From the NCBI RefSeq assembly GCF_000737195.2, contig NZ_JALM01000030.1:1-64000 (forward strand): a DNA stretch of 64,000 bases, read 5' to 3'. Both the position numbers and the translations under genes were made by a program. This document shows positions 13,838 through 20,560 of the stretch, in pieces (within the stretch, counting starts at the first letter, position 1; each line of letters begins with the position of its first letter). The notes beneath the pieces are model-generated. The model was not told the DNA's origin and did no database searches. It saw nothing but the letters and a program-made list of their open reading frames with translations. Source of the DNA: Sciscionella sediminilitoris (GTDB lineage: Bacteria; Actinomycetota; Actinomycetes; Mycobacteriales; Pseudonocardiaceae).

Positions 13838-14830
13838 ATGCGTACCGGAAACAAAACGGTGCGCGCAGCGTTTTCGCTGTTGGCGGCCGTACTACTCACA
13901 CTGAGTGGCACCGGGATCACCGGCGCGGCCCCGACACAGCGCCAGGCGGACGACGGTGCGCGCGTCTACCAGGAACAGTGGATCGGCCCGCGGGAACTGG
14001 ATGTGCGGATGCACTCGCCCGCGCTGGGCAAGAACGCGAGCATGCGATTACTGCTGCCGCCCGGCTGGTCGAAGAACTCCCCGCGGAACTGGCCGGTCGT
14101 GTACCTGCTCGCCGGTTGCTGCGAACCGGTCCACGACTACCGGTCCTGGACGGATTTCACCGATATCGAACAATTCGCGAAAGACAAGAACGTCATCATC
14201 GCCATGCCGAGCGGCGGCATCAACGGCAATTACTCCGACTGGTGGAACTTCGGCAGGTACGGTCCGCCGAATTGGGAGAAATTCCATCTGGACGAGATGC
14301 GCCAGATCCTCGAACGCGATTACCGCGCGGGCACGAAACGGGCGATCGCCGGGCTCTCCGCGGGCGCGTACGGCGCGATGGAGTACGCGAGCCGCCGCCC
14401 GGGCATGTTCGGCGCCGCCGCGTCGTTCAGCGGGATCCTGAACACCCGCGCGCCCACCGGTCAGGTCTCCGTGCTGTTCGGCACCCTGCGCAACGACCAG
14501 GTCCCGTTCGCGCTCTGGGGAAACCCGGTCACCCAGTCCGATACCTGGCGGGCGCACAATCCCTTCGACAATGCGGACAAGCTGCGCGGCACCCGGCTGT
14601 TCGTCTCCGCGGGCAACGGCGTGTCGACCGATCTCGACCCGCCGAACCAGACGCCGGCCGCGAACCTGCTCGAACCGCCGACCCTGGCGAACTCGCTCGG
14701 TTTCGTGGCCAAGCTGAAGCTGCTCGGGATCCCGGTGACCACCGACTTCTACGGCGCGGGCACGCACGCCTGGCCGTACTGGTTCCGCGAGCTACAGCGC
14801 GCGTGGCCGCTGCTGACCAGGGACTTCTAG
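13838..14830 (+). CDS. Secreted alpha/beta hydrolase, paralogue of the 6246 gene
   Basis: A 330-residue secreted esterase with a Sec signal peptide (FSLLAAVLLTLSGTG, cleavage near GAAP). Core motifs parallel the protein at 6246-7211: NWPVVYLLAG, a DKNVIIAMPSGG segment, nucleophile elbow GLSAGAYG, and GTHAWPYW with the catalytic His. A double Cys in LAGCCEP replaces the HG of the paralogue. The fold is that of antigen 85/esterase D; the natural substrate is not known. A short dyad (CGCGGA-N5-TCCGCG, 13820-13836) lies directly before the ATG and could mask or control translation. The end overlaps the convergent YhgE gene by four bases. Confidence 0.85.
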   Translation: MRTGNKTVRAAFSLLAAVLLTLSGTGITGAAPTQRQADDGARVYQEQWIGPRELDVRMHSPALGKNASMRLLLPPGWSKNSPRNWPVVYLLAGCCEPVHDYRSWTDFTDIEQFAKDKNVIIAMPSGGINGNYSDWWNFGRYGPPNWEKFHLDEMRQILERDYRAGTKRAIAGLSAGAYGAMEYASRRPGMFGAAASFSGILNTRAPTGQVSVLFGTLRNDQVPFALWGNPVTQSDTWRAHNPFDNADKLRGTRLFVSAGNGVSTDLDPPNQTPAANLLEPPTLANSLGFVAKLKLLGIPVTTDFYGAGTHAWPYWFRELQRAWPLLTRDF

Positions 14831-16908
14831 GACCCCAGCCGCAGCTGCCGCGCGGGAAGCGAACGGCGGCGATCGGTGACCACGATGCTGGCCAGCCCAC
14901 CGACGATCAGCCAGGCGAGCAGCTGGATCAGCCCGCTGGCCAGCCCGTCGGATCCGGTGGTCACCGAACGCACGGCCTCGATCGCGCCATTGGTCGGGAG
15001 TAGCCCGCCGATGGTGTCGAAGAAACCGGGCACGGTGCTGACCACCCCGCTGGCGATGGTGAGCACGAGCACCGCGAAGGACAGGAATCTCCCCGGCCGC
15101 TTGAAGATCGCGATCACGGCCTGGTTGAGCGCGACGAAGGAGTTCGCGGCGAGCACGAGCACCCCGAGCAGTTCGAACCAGTGCCCCGCACCGAGCCCGA
15201 GGAAGGGCATCAGGATCAGGCTGATCACCACGGCTGCCGCGGTCGCGATGCCCGCACCGGGCAGTGCGGCGCGGAACACGATCTTCCAGGTCGGTTCCCG
15301 GGAGGTGAGCACCTCGGGCGGCACCGCGCGGGTGAGCATGTAGAGCGCGAGCGCGAGCGCCCACAGCGCGACGGCGAGGATCAGCGCGATCGCGAACGGT
15401 CCGAAGTCCTGCTGGTCGAGGTAATTCGCCAGCGCGGGATTCGCCGCGACCGACTTCAGGTGGTCCCTGCCGTCCTCGGAGTAACTGGGCACCTGCTGCT
15501 TGCCCTTGTCCAGCCCACCGGCGAGCTGCCCGGCACCGTCGCCGAGCTTCGAGGCGCCGTCCTGCAGTCCGCCGACCCCCTTGACGAGTTGGGGTGCCTT
15601 GTCGGCGAGCTGTTTGGTCCCGTTCGCGAGCTGCCCGGTTCCGCCCTGCAGCTTGTGGATCCCGCCGTCCAGCTGGCTCGCGCCATCGGCCGCTTTCCCG
15701 ATCATGCCGATCATCTGCGGCGCCTTGTCGGCCAGCTGCTGGTTACCGTCGGCGACCTGCCGCGCGCCCTTGGCGAGCGCGGCGGTTCCGTTCTTCGTGT
15801 CCACCGCGGCCTTGCGGATCTTGGCGAGCTGGCCCTTGGTGTTGTCGGCCTGCCCGGCGAAGTTGTCCGCGGCCTGCTTGAGCCCGGCACAGAACTGCGG
15901 GGCCGCACCGGATGCCTCGCACTGCGCGGCGATCTGCTGGAACTTCTTGGCCACTCCGTCGGTGGAGGGGAGGGAATCGATGAACTTGATGATCCCGTCC
16001 GCCATCGGGCCGATCTGGTCGGCCATCTTCTGGTTGCCGTCCGCGACCTGTTTGGCGCCGTCCGCGAGTTTGCGCATCAGCGCGGGCATCTGCTTGGTCT
16101 GCTCGGCACCCTGCTGCAGCCCGTTCGCCAGCGCACCCGATCCCTGGGCCAGCTGGCCGATCCCGCCGTTGAGCGTCTGTGCCCCGTCGTTGAGCTGATT
16201 TGCCGCGCTGCTGAGCAGTTTCGTGCCGTCGGCGAGCTGACCGGTGCCACTGGTGAGCTGGCTCAGCCCGTCCTTGACCTTGCCCGCACCCTGCGCGGCT
16301 TTGCCGATCATGTCGTGCATGCCGTTGAAGCCGACGTAGATCTGGTCCAGATAGGTCTCCACGACCTGCTGGTTGAGCGTGGCGACGGTGGCCTTGGCGA
16401 TATCGCTGCTCATCATCGGGTCGACGACTTTGCCATTGCTCGAGGTCTTGATGTCCACATTGGCCTGGCGGGCCGTTTTCGGATCGCCTTTCATCGTGAC
16501 GCTCGCCGCGGAGGTCGCGGATTTGGAGAAATTCTTCGGGATGGTGACGACGGTGGCGTATTTTCCGCTCGCCAGACCGTCCTTGGCATCGCTTTCGTTG
16601 GTGAGGCTCCAGTCGAAGCTGGAGTCCTTGTTGTCGATGATCTTCCCGGCGAGCTCGCGGCCGAGCGGGAGCAGTTGCCCCTGGATCTTCACCGGCTCGT
16701 CGTTGTTCACCACGGCGGCCTGCGCGGTGCCGCGGTTGGTTCCCGGGGCCCAGAACGCCCAGGCGAGCACACCGACGATGAGCGAGGGCACGATGATCAG
16801 CCCGAGCCAGGTGCGCCAGGTGACCGGTCCGGTACCGGTCGAACCGGCCGCGTTCGCGAACGGCCGGAAAAGCGAGCCGAACCGGGATTTGCGCTGCGGG
16901 TCGAACAT
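14827..16908 (-). CDS. YhgE/Pip family membrane protein
   Basis: A 693-residue envelope protein of the YhgE/Pip (phage infection protein) family, related to ABC-2 permeases. One membrane helix lies near the N-terminus (LGLIIVPSLIVGVLAWAF). A 400-residue extracytoplasmic region follows, dominated by short repeats of the type GxxQLADG and GAxQLxxG (residues 190-470), predicted to form a long helical stalk. About five helices sit at the C-terminus (FAIALILAVALWALAL onward). Relatives are linked to phage adsorption and, in other taxa, type VII toxin or peptide export. It starts one base after the stop of the MMPL-ABC gene and is surely co-transcribed with it, so the two probably form one envelope transport module. 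Confidence 0.87.
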   Translation of the reverse strand: MFDPQRKSRFGSLFRPFANAAGSTGTGPVTWRTWLGLIIVPSLIVGVLAWAFWAPGTNRGTAQAAVVNNDEPVKIQGQLLPLGRELAGKIIDNKDSSFDWSLTNESDAKDGLASGKYATVVTIPKNFSKSATSAASVTMKGDPKTARQANVDIKTSSNGKVVDPMMSSDIAKATVATLNQQVVETYLDQIYVGFNGMHDMIGKAAQGAGKVKDGLSQLTSGTGQLADGTKLLSSAANQLNDGAQTLNGGIGQLAQGSGALANGLQQGAEQTKQMPALMRKLADGAKQVADGNQKMADQIGPMADGIIKFIDSLPSTDGVAKKFQQIAAQCEASGAAPQFCAGLKQAADNFAGQADNTKGQLAKIRKAAVDTKNGTAALAKGARQVADGNQQLADKAPQMIGMIGKAADGASQLDGGIHKLQGGTGQLANGTKQLADKAPQLVKGVGGLQDGASKLGDGAGQLAGGLDKGKQQVPSYSEDGRDHLKSVAANPALANYLDQQDFGPFAIALILAVALWALALALYMLTRAVPPEVLTSREPTWKIVFRAALPGAGIATAAAVVISLILMPFLGLGAGHWFELLGVLVLAANSFVALNQAVIAIFKRPGRFLSFAVLVLTIASGVVSTVPGFFDTIGGLLPTNGAIEAVRSVTTGSDGLASGLIQLLAWLIVGGLASIVVTDRRRSLPARQLRLGS

Positions 16909-16909
16909 T

Positions 16910-19678
16910 TCAGTTGACCTCCGCGTCCTGAATCGTGAGGGTGTGTTCCATCGTCGGGTCGTCGTTCGCGGGTTGGTTACCCAGATCCACCGAAATGGTT
17001 CCCGCGGGTAACAGGTCGAAAAGCAAGGTGGGGGACTGACACGTTAGCGCCACGCTCGCCGGTGTTCCATCCCCGCTGATGGGGGCGGAGAGCACATCCC
17101 GGAGGATCGCGCGCTCCTCGGTGTTCACCACCAGATCGGCGTCGTCGAGCAGGATCAGCTGGATCCCGTCGCGCAGCGCGGCGCGCACTTCCTCGCCGGG
17201 ATGGTTGGTGGTGCGGCAGGGAATCAGCGCCACCTGACGACGGACCGCGTGCGCCCGCTGCGGAAGCACCTTGCCGAGCACCTTCAGGTCCCCGTCGATA
17301 CGCCGCACCCGCCCGGCGAGCGTGTACAGCAGCGCGGATTTGCCGGACGGGGCCGGTCCGCTGATCGCCAGCACGCCGCCGCGCGGCAGGTGCACCGCGA
17401 AGTCCGAGAACACGGTGTGGTTGCGGTCATCGCCGAGCCGCAGCCCGGCCGCGTTGATCGCGTCATCGGCCTCCGGGCTCGGCCAGTCCTGCAGCCGCAG
17501 CTCGTTCATCAGGCCGTCGCCCTCGGCGTCGAAGACCGGCAGGCGGCGCTCCAGCCAGCGCGGCAGCCACCAGGCATGCTTACCGAGCAGCGCGAGTACC
17601 GCGGGGACCAGGATCATCCGCACGATGAACGCGTCCACGAACACCCCGATCGCCAGGGAGAACGCCATCGGTTTGATGGGCCCGTTCCCCTCCGGGACGA
17701 AGGCGGCGAACACCGCGAACATGATGATCGCCGCGGAGGTCACCACGCGGGAGGCGGAGATGAACCCGGTCTCGATCGCCTTGCGCGGATCGCCCTTGTG
17801 CACGAATTCCTCGCGGATCCGGGTCACGAGGAACACCTCGTAGTCCATCGCGAGCCCGAAGAGCACACCCATCAGCAGGATCGGTAAGAAGCTGATCACG
17901 CTACCGGTCTTCGGGATGTTGAACAGATCGGCGAAATGCCCCTGTACGAACACGAAGGAGGTCGCCCCGAACGCGACGAGTACCGAGAGCAGATATCCCG
18001 CGGCCGCCTTGATCGGCACCCAGATCGAGCGGAACACCATCGCGAGCAGGATCAGCGAGAGCCCGACGACGAGGATCCCGAACGGCAGCAGCGATCCGGC
18101 GAGCTGGTCGGAAACGTCGAGCGCGACCGCGGTGATCCCGGTGACCGCCGTGGAAACCCCGTACTTGTCCTGGAAATGTCCTTGCAGCGAACGGATCTTG
18201 GTGACCAGCTGCTTGGTCTGCTCGGAGAACCCGTCCCCGTCCGGGACCACCTGCATGATGCCGGTGTCCGCGGTCGCGTTCGGGGTGGAGATCGGCACCG
18301 CGGCAACCCCGGGCAGATCCCGGACCTCGTCGGCGACCCCGTTCATCACGCCGATCGGGTCGTGGCTGCCCACGATGTTCGCGGTCACCATCAGCGGGGC
18401 GTTGAATCCGGGGCCGAAATGCTCGGAGATGGTGTCCCAGGAATCGCGCGGCGCGGTGCCCACCGGTTCCTGGCCGTTGTTCGGCAGGCTGAGCGTGAGA
18501 TCGCTCGCGGGCAGGGCACACACCCCGAGCCCGGCGATCACCAGCACCACGGTCAGCGCGGGAACCTTGGTCACCGCACGCACCCAGCCGCGCGCGATGC
18601 GGTGCTTGGGCTGACGGCGCGGTTTGTCGTCGCCGTGTTTGCGCGGGCGGGCCGAACGCGGGCGCAGCTTCTCCCCGGCGAAGGCCAGCAGCGCGGGAAT
18701 GAGCGTCACCGCGACCAGTACCGCCACCGCGACCGAGAAGGCCGCGACCATGCCCATCACGGTCAGGAACGGGATTCCGGCCACGAACAGCCCGATGAGC
18801 GCGATCATCACCGTGGTGCCCGCGAAGATCACCGCGGACCCTGCGGTCGCGGTCGCCCGCCCGATCGACTCGCGCACTTCCAGTCCCTCACCGAGCTGAT
18901 CTCGATGCCGGGAGAGGATGAACAGGGCATAGTCGATCCCGACCGCGAGCCCGAGCATGATGCCCAGCAGCGGGGCGGTGGAGTTGATCTCGATCACCGC
19001 GGTCGCGGCATAAGTCAGCCCGACCCCGATCCCCACCCCGATCAGCGCGGTGAGCAACGGCATCCCCGCCGCGATGAACGAGCGGAACATCAGCAGCAGC
19101 ACGATCAGCGCGACGATGACACCGAACACCTCGGTGATGCCCAGCTGGGGAAGCGGGTTGTTGAAGGCGTTCCCGCCGAGCTGCACGCTCGCCCCGTGCC
19201 CGACCTGCCGGGCCAGGTCCTGGGAGATGCTGCTGAGCTGGTCCTTGGTCTGCTGGTGAAGATTCTGTGGCTGCGCGTCGATCTGAATGTTGATCAGCGC
19301 GGCCTGGTTATCCTTGGCGATCTGTCCCTTGGCGTTCTTGTCGAACGGGTCGGAGGCCATGCTGACCTGGTCGACCTTGGCCATCCGCTTGACCGCGGTG
19401 GATACCGCGGTCTTGACCCCGGGGTCGTGGATGTTCATACCCTTGGGCACGACCAGGATCGCCTGCCCCTGCGAACCGCTCACCTGCGGGAACACCCGGT
19501 TCAGGTGGTCGAGCGCGTCCTGGGCGGCGGAGCCCGGAATGGTGAACTTGTCTTCGGTTCCCTTGTTGAACAGCGCATACGCCCCGCCCACCAGGATCAG
19601 CACCACGAGCCAGGCGACGAGCACGAACCAGCGAGCGCGCGCGGCGGCACGACCAAGGCGGTACAGGAACGAAGACAA
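16910..19678 (-). CDS. MMPL/RND transporter fused to a miniature ABC ATPase domain
   Basis: A 922-residue protein. Residues 1-700 are a complete MMPL transporter with two 6-helix bundles and the proton-relay Asp-Tyr pairs at 249-250 (VGIDYALF) and 612-613 (LAMDYEVF). Residues 740-905 add an ABC-like nucleotide-binding domain: Walker A GPAPSGKSA at 774-782, a Q-loop-like RRQVALIP, and Walker B IQLILLDDAD at 839-848. The helical subdomain and LSGGQ signature are missing; only about 20 residues separate the Q-loop from Walker B, and the switch His is absent. The start is TTG 19678 with GGAG upstream. MMPL proteins export lipids or siderophores with proton motive force, so a fused ATPase is unusual; it may serve the YhgE partner one base downstream. 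Confidence 0.88.
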   Translation of the reverse strand: MSSFLYRLGRAAARARWFVLVAWLVVLILVGGAYALFNKGTEDKFTIPGSAAQDALDHLNRVFPQVSGSQGQAILVVPKGMNIHDPGVKTAVSTAVKRMAKVDQVSMASDPFDKNAKGQIAKDNQAALINIQIDAQPQNLHQQTKDQLSSISQDLARQVGHGASVQLGGNAFNNPLPQLGITEVFGVIVALIVLLLMFRSFIAAGMPLLTALIGVGIGVGLTYAATAVIEINSTAPLLGIMLGLAVGIDYALFILSRHRDQLGEGLEVRESIGRATATAGSAVIFAGTTVMIALIGLFVAGIPFLTVMGMVAAFSVAVAVLVAVTLIPALLAFAGEKLRPRSARPRKHGDDKPRRQPKHRIARGWVRAVTKVPALTVVLVIAGLGVCALPASDLTLSLPNNGQEPVGTAPRDSWDTISEHFGPGFNAPLMVTANIVGSHDPIGVMNGVADEVRDLPGVAAVPISTPNATADTGIMQVVPDGDGFSEQTKQLVTKIRSLQGHFQDKYGVSTAVTGITAVALDVSDQLAGSLLPFGILVVGLSLILLAMVFRSIWVPIKAAAGYLLSVLVAFGATSFVFVQGHFADLFNIPKTGSVISFLPILLMGVLFGLAMDYEVFLVTRIREEFVHKGDPRKAIETGFISASRVVTSAAIIMFAVFAAFVPEGNGPIKPMAFSLAIGVFVDAFIVRMILVPAVLALLGKHAWWLPRWLERRLPVFDAEGDGLMNELRLQDWPSPEADDAINAAGLRLGDDRNHTVFSDFAVHLPRGGVLAISGPAPSGKSALLYTLAGRVRRIDGDLKVLGKVLPQRAHAVRRQVALIPCRTTNHPGEEVRAALRDGIQLILLDDADLVVNTEERAILRDVLSAPISGDGTPASVALTCQSPTLLFDLLPAGTISVDLGNQPANDDPTMEHTLTIQDAEVN

Positions 19679-19782: not shown

Positions 19783-19855
19783 CTAGATGCACAGTGTATT
19801 GAACGCTGTATGTGTTGAGTCACGTGGGCATGACGGGCCGGGAGGCGCTGGAGTT

Positions 19856-20560
19856 ATGACAGTTCGAGGTGCTAGCGACCAGCTTGCCGATCCCGGGGCC
19901 CCGCGGGCGAAGACCTCACCCGGTGGGGGTACCCGCAGACGCGCGGAAACCCGGCGGCGGCTGATGGACGCCGCCTATGAGGTGTTCACCGAACACAGTA
20001 TCCGGGATGCCCCCATCGAGCTGATCTGCGAACGTGCCGGGTTCACCAGGGGCGCTTTCTACTCCAACTTCGGCAGCAAGGAAGACCTGTTCCTCGCCGT
20101 GTTCGAGGAGCACATGCGCACCCAGGTGGACAATCTGCGCAGCACTCTCTCCGAGGTGCTCGGAGACGCCGAACTGCGCGATCTGACCTCACTGCGCGAG
20201 GCGATCGGCCGGGTCAGCGCGGTCTATCTGGAACCGCTCGTCACCGACAAGAGCTGGCATCTGATGACCATCGAGTTCAAGGCGATCGCGCTGCGTGATC
20301 CACAGCTGCGCGCCGGGTTCCGGGACATGATGAACCAGCTGGACAGCCAGCTCTCCGAGGTGCTGGCCACCCTGTTCACCAAGGTCGGGGTGGAACTGGC
20401 CATGCCGGTGGAGGACGTGGCCTCGGTGCTCGCGACGCTGTACGAGACGGCCGCGGAGCGGGTGATGTTCGAGGGCGAGCTCACCCCGATGGAGAGCCCG
20501 TTCATCACCCAGGTGCTCCCCCGGCTGCTCACCGCGGCACTGATCACGCCGCCGCAATGA
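19856..20560 (+). CDS. TetR family regulator, divergent from MMPL-YhgE operon
   Basis: A 234-residue TetR-type repressor. A 27-residue charged leader precedes the helix-turn-helix (residues 40-80: APIELICERAGFTRGAFYSNFGSKEDL), followed by an all-helical ligand domain. I chose ATG 19856 for its GGAG ribosome site; the frame is open to 19787. It is divergent from the MMPL-ABC/YhgE operon, the common layout for a local repressor of an exporter, so that operon is its likely target. A strong hairpin ends both this gene and the convergent hsp20 gene. Confidence 0.88.
   Translation: MTVRGASDQLADPGAPRAKTSPGGGTRRRAETRRRLMDAAYEVFTEHSIRDAPIELICERAGFTRGAFYSNFGSKEDLFLAVFEEHMRTQVDNLRSTLSEVLGDAELRDLTSLREAIGRVSAVYLEPLVTDKSWHLMTIEFKAIALRDPQLRAGFRDMMNQLDSQLSEVLATLFTKVGVELAMPVEDVASVLATLYETAAERVMFEGELTPMESPFITQVLPRLLTAALITPPQ

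Follow-up and report, generated by a model that had tools for sequence, protein, structure and literature searches.

The C-terminal domain of an MMPL/RND transporter encoded by Sciscionella sediminilitoris is best explained as a descendant of a dedicated ABC-ATPase-like partner of the actinobacterial YhgE/Pip permease. To judge from sequence comparisons across actinobacteria, it is rather probable that the domain now serves as a pseudo-NBD adaptor, which would join the proton-driven pump to YhgE by docking. The fused domain is probably a connector and not a second engine, since elsewhere it is a separate, mostly dead partner of the neighbouring YhgE. The gene was analysed within a stretch of 64,000 nucleotides, here called the window (positions 1 to 64,000 of the forward strand of contig NZ_JALM01000030.1).

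The fused gene occupies positions 16910..19678 on the minus strand and is a single ORF of 922 aa with a TTG start. Residues 1-715 (17534..19678, minus) constitute the MMPL part. Pfam MMPL (PF03176) matches two stretches of the protein above its cut-off (293 bits), and the MmpL3 structure 7nvh is matched with an E-value of 1e-48. In agreement with the preliminary description, both proton-relay Asp-Tyr pairs are present, D249-Y250 in the TM4 motif GIDYALF (18920..18940, minus) and D612-Y613 in the TM10 motif AMDYEVF (17831..17851, minus). These Asp and Tyr residues occur without exception in fused (71/71) and unfused (20/20) MMPLs, which argues for a live proton relay. A linker of the form FDAEGDGLxxELxLxDWPSP (residues 716-735; 17474..17533, minus) leads into a degenerate ABC nucleotide-binding domain of approximately residues 735-905 (16964..17476, minus). 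The linker Trp is kept in 96% of 70 aligned loci, a set composed of 69 fused loci and L189, where a free domain stands beside yhgE without an MMPL.

The fused-gene stop codon (16910-16912) is separated by 1 nt from the yhgE ATG (16906-16908), as had been described. YhgE/Pip (14827..16908, minus) is a protein of 693 aa with ABC-2-like ends and a long heptad-repeat middle. It exceeds the cut-offs of the N-terminal model TIGR03061 (109 bits, cut-off 96), the heptad-repeat model TIGR03057 (86 bits, cut-off 18.6) and PF12698. The C-terminal model TIGR03062 stays below its cut-off (80.1 against 102.2 bits), although the region still matches with an E-value of 1.7e-22. A PDB search with a YhgE profile returned mostly coiled-coil look-alikes among the matches listed. 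On the other side of the fused gene, a TetR-family regulator is encoded divergently (19787..20560, plus); such a TetR-like ORF is a conserved neighbour, found in 65/70 loci and almost always divergent. The end of yhgE is overlapped convergently by 4 nt by an ORF on the plus strand (13838-14830), which we take to be an Antigen 85-like esterase, and an ORF of equal length is located at this position in Sciscionella marina (L035).

The fused protein resembles MmpL3-type MMPL/RND transporters in its two MMPL repeats, its two invariant Asp-Tyr pairs and the presence of a C-terminal extension past the last repeat. In contrast to these transporters, it has a degenerate ABC domain as its extension, and its gene is tied to yhgE; it also scores far under the NCBIfam cut-off for MmpL3 itself. 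The extension is related to the ATPases of ABC-2/ABCA-type exporters (PF00005), with which it shares the P-loop core and the positions of Walker A and Walker B. Residues 759-834 match Pfam ABC_tran with 29.3 bits (cut-off 25), and the best PDB match is ABCA3, with a profile E-value of 4e-17. Unlike these ATPases, the fused domain has neither helical subdomain, LSGGQ and switch His nor a Glu together with Walker A, and Walker A itself is often lost. In the profile alignment to ABCA3 the helical subdomain and the signature are skipped, and the positions of the Q-loop Gln and the switch His are occupied in the window protein by Cys and Gln. Walker A of the window protein is intact (GPAPSGKS, residues 774-781; 17336..17359, minus), and LSGGQ is absent from its domain. 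The reduced domain reported in the preliminary description is therefore confirmed, with one refinement: in Walker B (LILLDD, residues 841-846; 17141..17158, minus) the conserved Asp is followed by a second Asp in place of the catalytic Glu. Degenerate NBDs are also found in heterodimeric ABC transporters, where the catalytic residues are lost while the fold and the role in the transporter remain. Those domains pair with an active NBD, whereas the fused domain sits on an RND pump and no active NBD partner is encoded beside the fused-system genes.

The same fused protein is present in Sciscionella marina with 94-95% identity, and S. marina was the sole match when genome contigs were searched for related loci. 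A full-protein search of 60 relatives revealed eight more fused homologues in other genera, one of them in another family. Searching 297 genomes of the same family with a domain profile, we identified 59 fused genes; fused genes were also present in 51/199 genomes of a second and 9/61 genomes of a third actinobacterial family. More than 100 genomes, from several actinobacterial families, thus contain the fusion, and its occurrence in many independent genomes rules out a sequencing error joining two genes. In 69/69 fused loci yhgE adjoins the fused gene on the same strand, and in 52/70 loci the distance from the upstream stop to its start is between -8 and +1 nt. Such recurrence and tight spacing place the association of the MMPL-ABC fusion with its YhgE neighbour far beyond chance. 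No yhgE was found near any of the 12 closest unfused MMPL loci (0 of 12). At L037 (7871-9926) yhgE is split into two frames within the heptad-repeat region, indicating a frameshift or an assembly error, and at L168 (7551-8501) a second YhgE-like ORF is located about 1.4 kb downstream of the yhgE of the fused module. In Saccharopolyspora hirsuta, cholesterol is reported to induce a YhgE (3.82-fold) and an MMPL (3.33-fold; of the fused or the unfused type) with adjacent locus tags (PMC9782250, Table 2), and a PspC-domain gene is also induced in the same transcriptome (PMC9782250).

Split versions of the system, the search for which had been proposed earlier, are common among other actinobacterial YhgE loci. 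An ABC-like gene or domain lies immediately upstream on the same strand in 39/40 of them (31 free, 8 MMPL tails), a set picked from search matches, with several loci from one genome, and not a random sample. Only at L234 (G1062) was no ABC-like partner detected upstream. The detection model used for the free partners had been trained on fused domains, and some of these partners fall below the Pfam ABC cut-off and were assigned by position, length and a profile built in this analysis. The genome of the window itself contains three more yhgE loci (L208, L220 and L221, on contigs C160, C38 and C19), and the free ABC-like partner at each of them has lost the Walker A Lys. Named plasmid YhgEs of Arthrobacter, Rhodococcus and Tsukamurella also have an ABC-like partner upstream (3/3), and those of Deinococcus, Listeria, Enterococcus, Roseburia and Allomeiothermus have no such partner there (0/5). 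Actinobacterial YhgEs share with the YhgE/Pip family (Bacillus YhgE, phage infection protein Pip and EsaA relatives) the N-terminal domain, the heptad repeats and the ABC-2-like ends, but differ from the five non-actinobacterial loci in being paired with an ABC-like partner.

Free and fused domains have in common a set of residues that are not catalytic. The Arg following the Walker A helix (R790 in the window, within a GR motif; 17300..17314, minus) is present in 32/32 free and 77/77 fused domains (109/109), and its position is taken by Leu or Val in six ordinary ABC proteins from the same loci. The Arg of a VR motif (R813; 17237..17251, minus) is kept in 75/77 fused and 26/32 free domains (101/109). 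The last Asp of a DxxD motif (D848) is found in 102/109 free and fused sequences and is absent from the six ordinary ABC proteins. Conservation of R790, R813 and D848 at these levels suggests selection on something other than catalysis. We use the presence of the post-Walker-A Arg, VR and DxxD, together with a position directly upstream of yhgE, to define in this analysis a group of YhgE-partner pseudo-NBDs, and the window domain shows all of these features. A generic ABC passenger domain is ruled out, as the non-catalytic residues are common to the free YhgE partners and unlike those of the six ordinary ABC proteins. Structure prediction from two sequences gave a mean pLDDT of 31.5, too low for the model to be used.

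The stepwise loss of the helical subdomain and of Walker A could also be read as the decay of a relic without function. This seems very unlikely, because more than 100 genomes from different families have retained the domain, with its invariant non-catalytic residues. All fused ORFs examined are long and continue through the domain without interruption; only in L186 is the MMPL part broken.

In most members the domain is unlikely to be a functional ATPase. While the free forms retain the helical subdomain, it is deleted in 73/77 fused members, and the distance between the Q region and Walker B is approximately 22 residues in most fused members as compared to 71-107 in free partners. The long form is kept in L190, L191, L219 and L228. 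In L190 (4281-5060) and L191 (3627-4406) the ABC domain on the fused MMPL is still full-length, with both the helical subdomain and Walker A present, and these proteins appear to be intermediates of the reduction. Walker A (GxxxxGK[ST]) is intact in 24/70 loci, namely 23 fused loci and the free L189; among the free partners it is intact in 3/32. The preliminary description had named homologues without Walker motifs as the evidence against its reading, and about two-thirds of the 69-71 fused homologues have indeed lost an intact Walker A, which about one-third (approximately 23) retain. The Walker B Asp is almost always kept across the 70-locus alignment, and in no homologue of this alignment does Walker A occur together with the catalytic Glu. 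Taken with the missing helical subdomain, this pattern points to a dead motor. Eight changes in the state of Walker A map onto the MMPL tree; for example, L144 is devoid of the P-loop in an otherwise intact ORF, and its sister L037 has it.

It had been suggested that the system is a hybrid in which the domain hydrolyses ATP and drives transport along with the proton motive force. The window protein does contain Walker A and Walker B and is detectable as an ABC_tran member, but it has no signature motif or helical subdomain from which an ABC composite site could be formed, its catalytic Glu is replaced by Asp, and its Q-loop and switch His are replaced as well. Moreover, most homologues lack Walker A, whereas the proton relay is never lost. 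We consider such a hybrid quite unlikely. The earlier reading thus holds for the partnership of the ABC-like domain with YhgE, borne out by all 69 fused loci, and finds no support as regards the dual engine.

The main rival to the adaptor applies to the Walker A-bearing subclade, to which the window protein belongs. There the domain might act as a nucleotide sensor, which would bind ATP or ADP, carry out no ABC-type hydrolysis and control the gating of the MMPL pump or of YhgE. Both the Lys of Walker A and the Asp of Walker B are retained by the window protein and by most of its clade. The retention of Walker A in a divergent Pseudonocardiaceae clade speaks against an adaptor-only reading and hints at nucleotide binding in that clade. 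However, the P-loop is shortened or lost in L144 and L151, close kin of Walker A-bearing members, and a P-loop is dispensable for the family at large. A sensor in this subclade is therefore doubtful, while nucleotide binding as such may persist in Sciscionella and its kin.

Evidence on which protein the domain works with comes from its pattern of divergence. Fused-domain distances correlate with those of YhgE after removal of MMPL (partial r 0.48; 0/999 permutations as high) and not with those of MMPL after removal of YhgE (partial r 0.04; 268/999 permutations as high), in an analysis in which unequal rates and short-domain noise are uncorrected and a shared fast rate could also give signal. 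This supports co-evolution of the ABC-like domain with YhgE. In addition, the only two Cys of the window YhgE (C330 and C340) are conserved in 59/61 fused-partner YhgEs as compared to 0 and 4 of 17 free-partner YhgEs, although alignment is difficult in this part of the protein; they may possibly form an extramembrane disulfide specific to the fused system. Both observations favour the pseudo-NBD adaptor. They also bear on the proposal that MMPL and YhgE work separately and that the fusion merely ensures co-expression. The overlapping or abutting genes of a tight operon would suit that proposal, but co-expression does not require a protein fusion, and neither the tracking of YhgE by the fused domain nor the rarity of the two Cys in free-partner YhgEs would be expected from it. 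We regard it as rather unlikely.

The trees place the origin of the fusion in a single event within a free lineage that still possessed the Walker A Lys. Among 32 free forms (including L189) the position of this Lys is held by Arg in 19, by another residue in 10 and by Lys in three. On the YhgE tree, built from the two ends of the protein, the three free loci with Lys (L189, L224 and L235) adjoin the fused clade, and the fused-partner YhgEs cluster together save for one long-branched row. One change suffices for the fusion on the MMPL tree (SH-aLRT 97), a quick tree in which sampling by domain presence favours a single-change result. The simplest order that we infer is a free partner with Lys, followed by fusion to MMPL, loss of the helical subdomain and repeated loss of Walker A.

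Sequence comparison shows that in most sampled actinobacteria the ABC-ATPase-like partner is encoded separately, by the gene immediately upstream of yhgE. In one lineage it became attached, a single time, to the C-terminus of an MMPL pump and then shed its helical subdomain and, in several branches, Walker A. The fused domain would no longer be an ABC motor but a docking piece holding YhgE to the pump. Proton-driven movement of MMPL would then power export through or along YhgE, the substrate being hydrophobic or lipid-like, and the long heptad-repeat region of YhgE is predicted to extend out of the membrane. With its intact Walker A, the window protein may have kept the ability to bind nucleotide and to adjust the contact. 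The divergent TetR is likely to regulate the operon by responding to a membrane-active compound. A further step, which we put forward tentatively as a possibility, is a swap of motors, in which the ATP engine of a YhgE exporter has been retired, its pseudo-NBD has been fused to an RND pump and the proton motive force drives an ABC-2-type permease via the former ATPase docking site.

YhgE/Pip proteins are widespread envelope proteins of Gram-positive bacteria, and we know of no settled function for them. The pair was not described in the literature searched for MMPL, YhgE and ABC, which is weak evidence of novelty as most subscription journals lay outside its coverage. With the present analysis actinobacterial YhgEs gain as partner a largely catalytically dead ABC-like domain, to which a proton-driven pump is attached in one lineage. 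The full, shortened and P-loop-less versions of the domain that occur naturally make the docking reading testable. If that reading is true, two transporter superfamilies with different energy sources would have merged in one machine.
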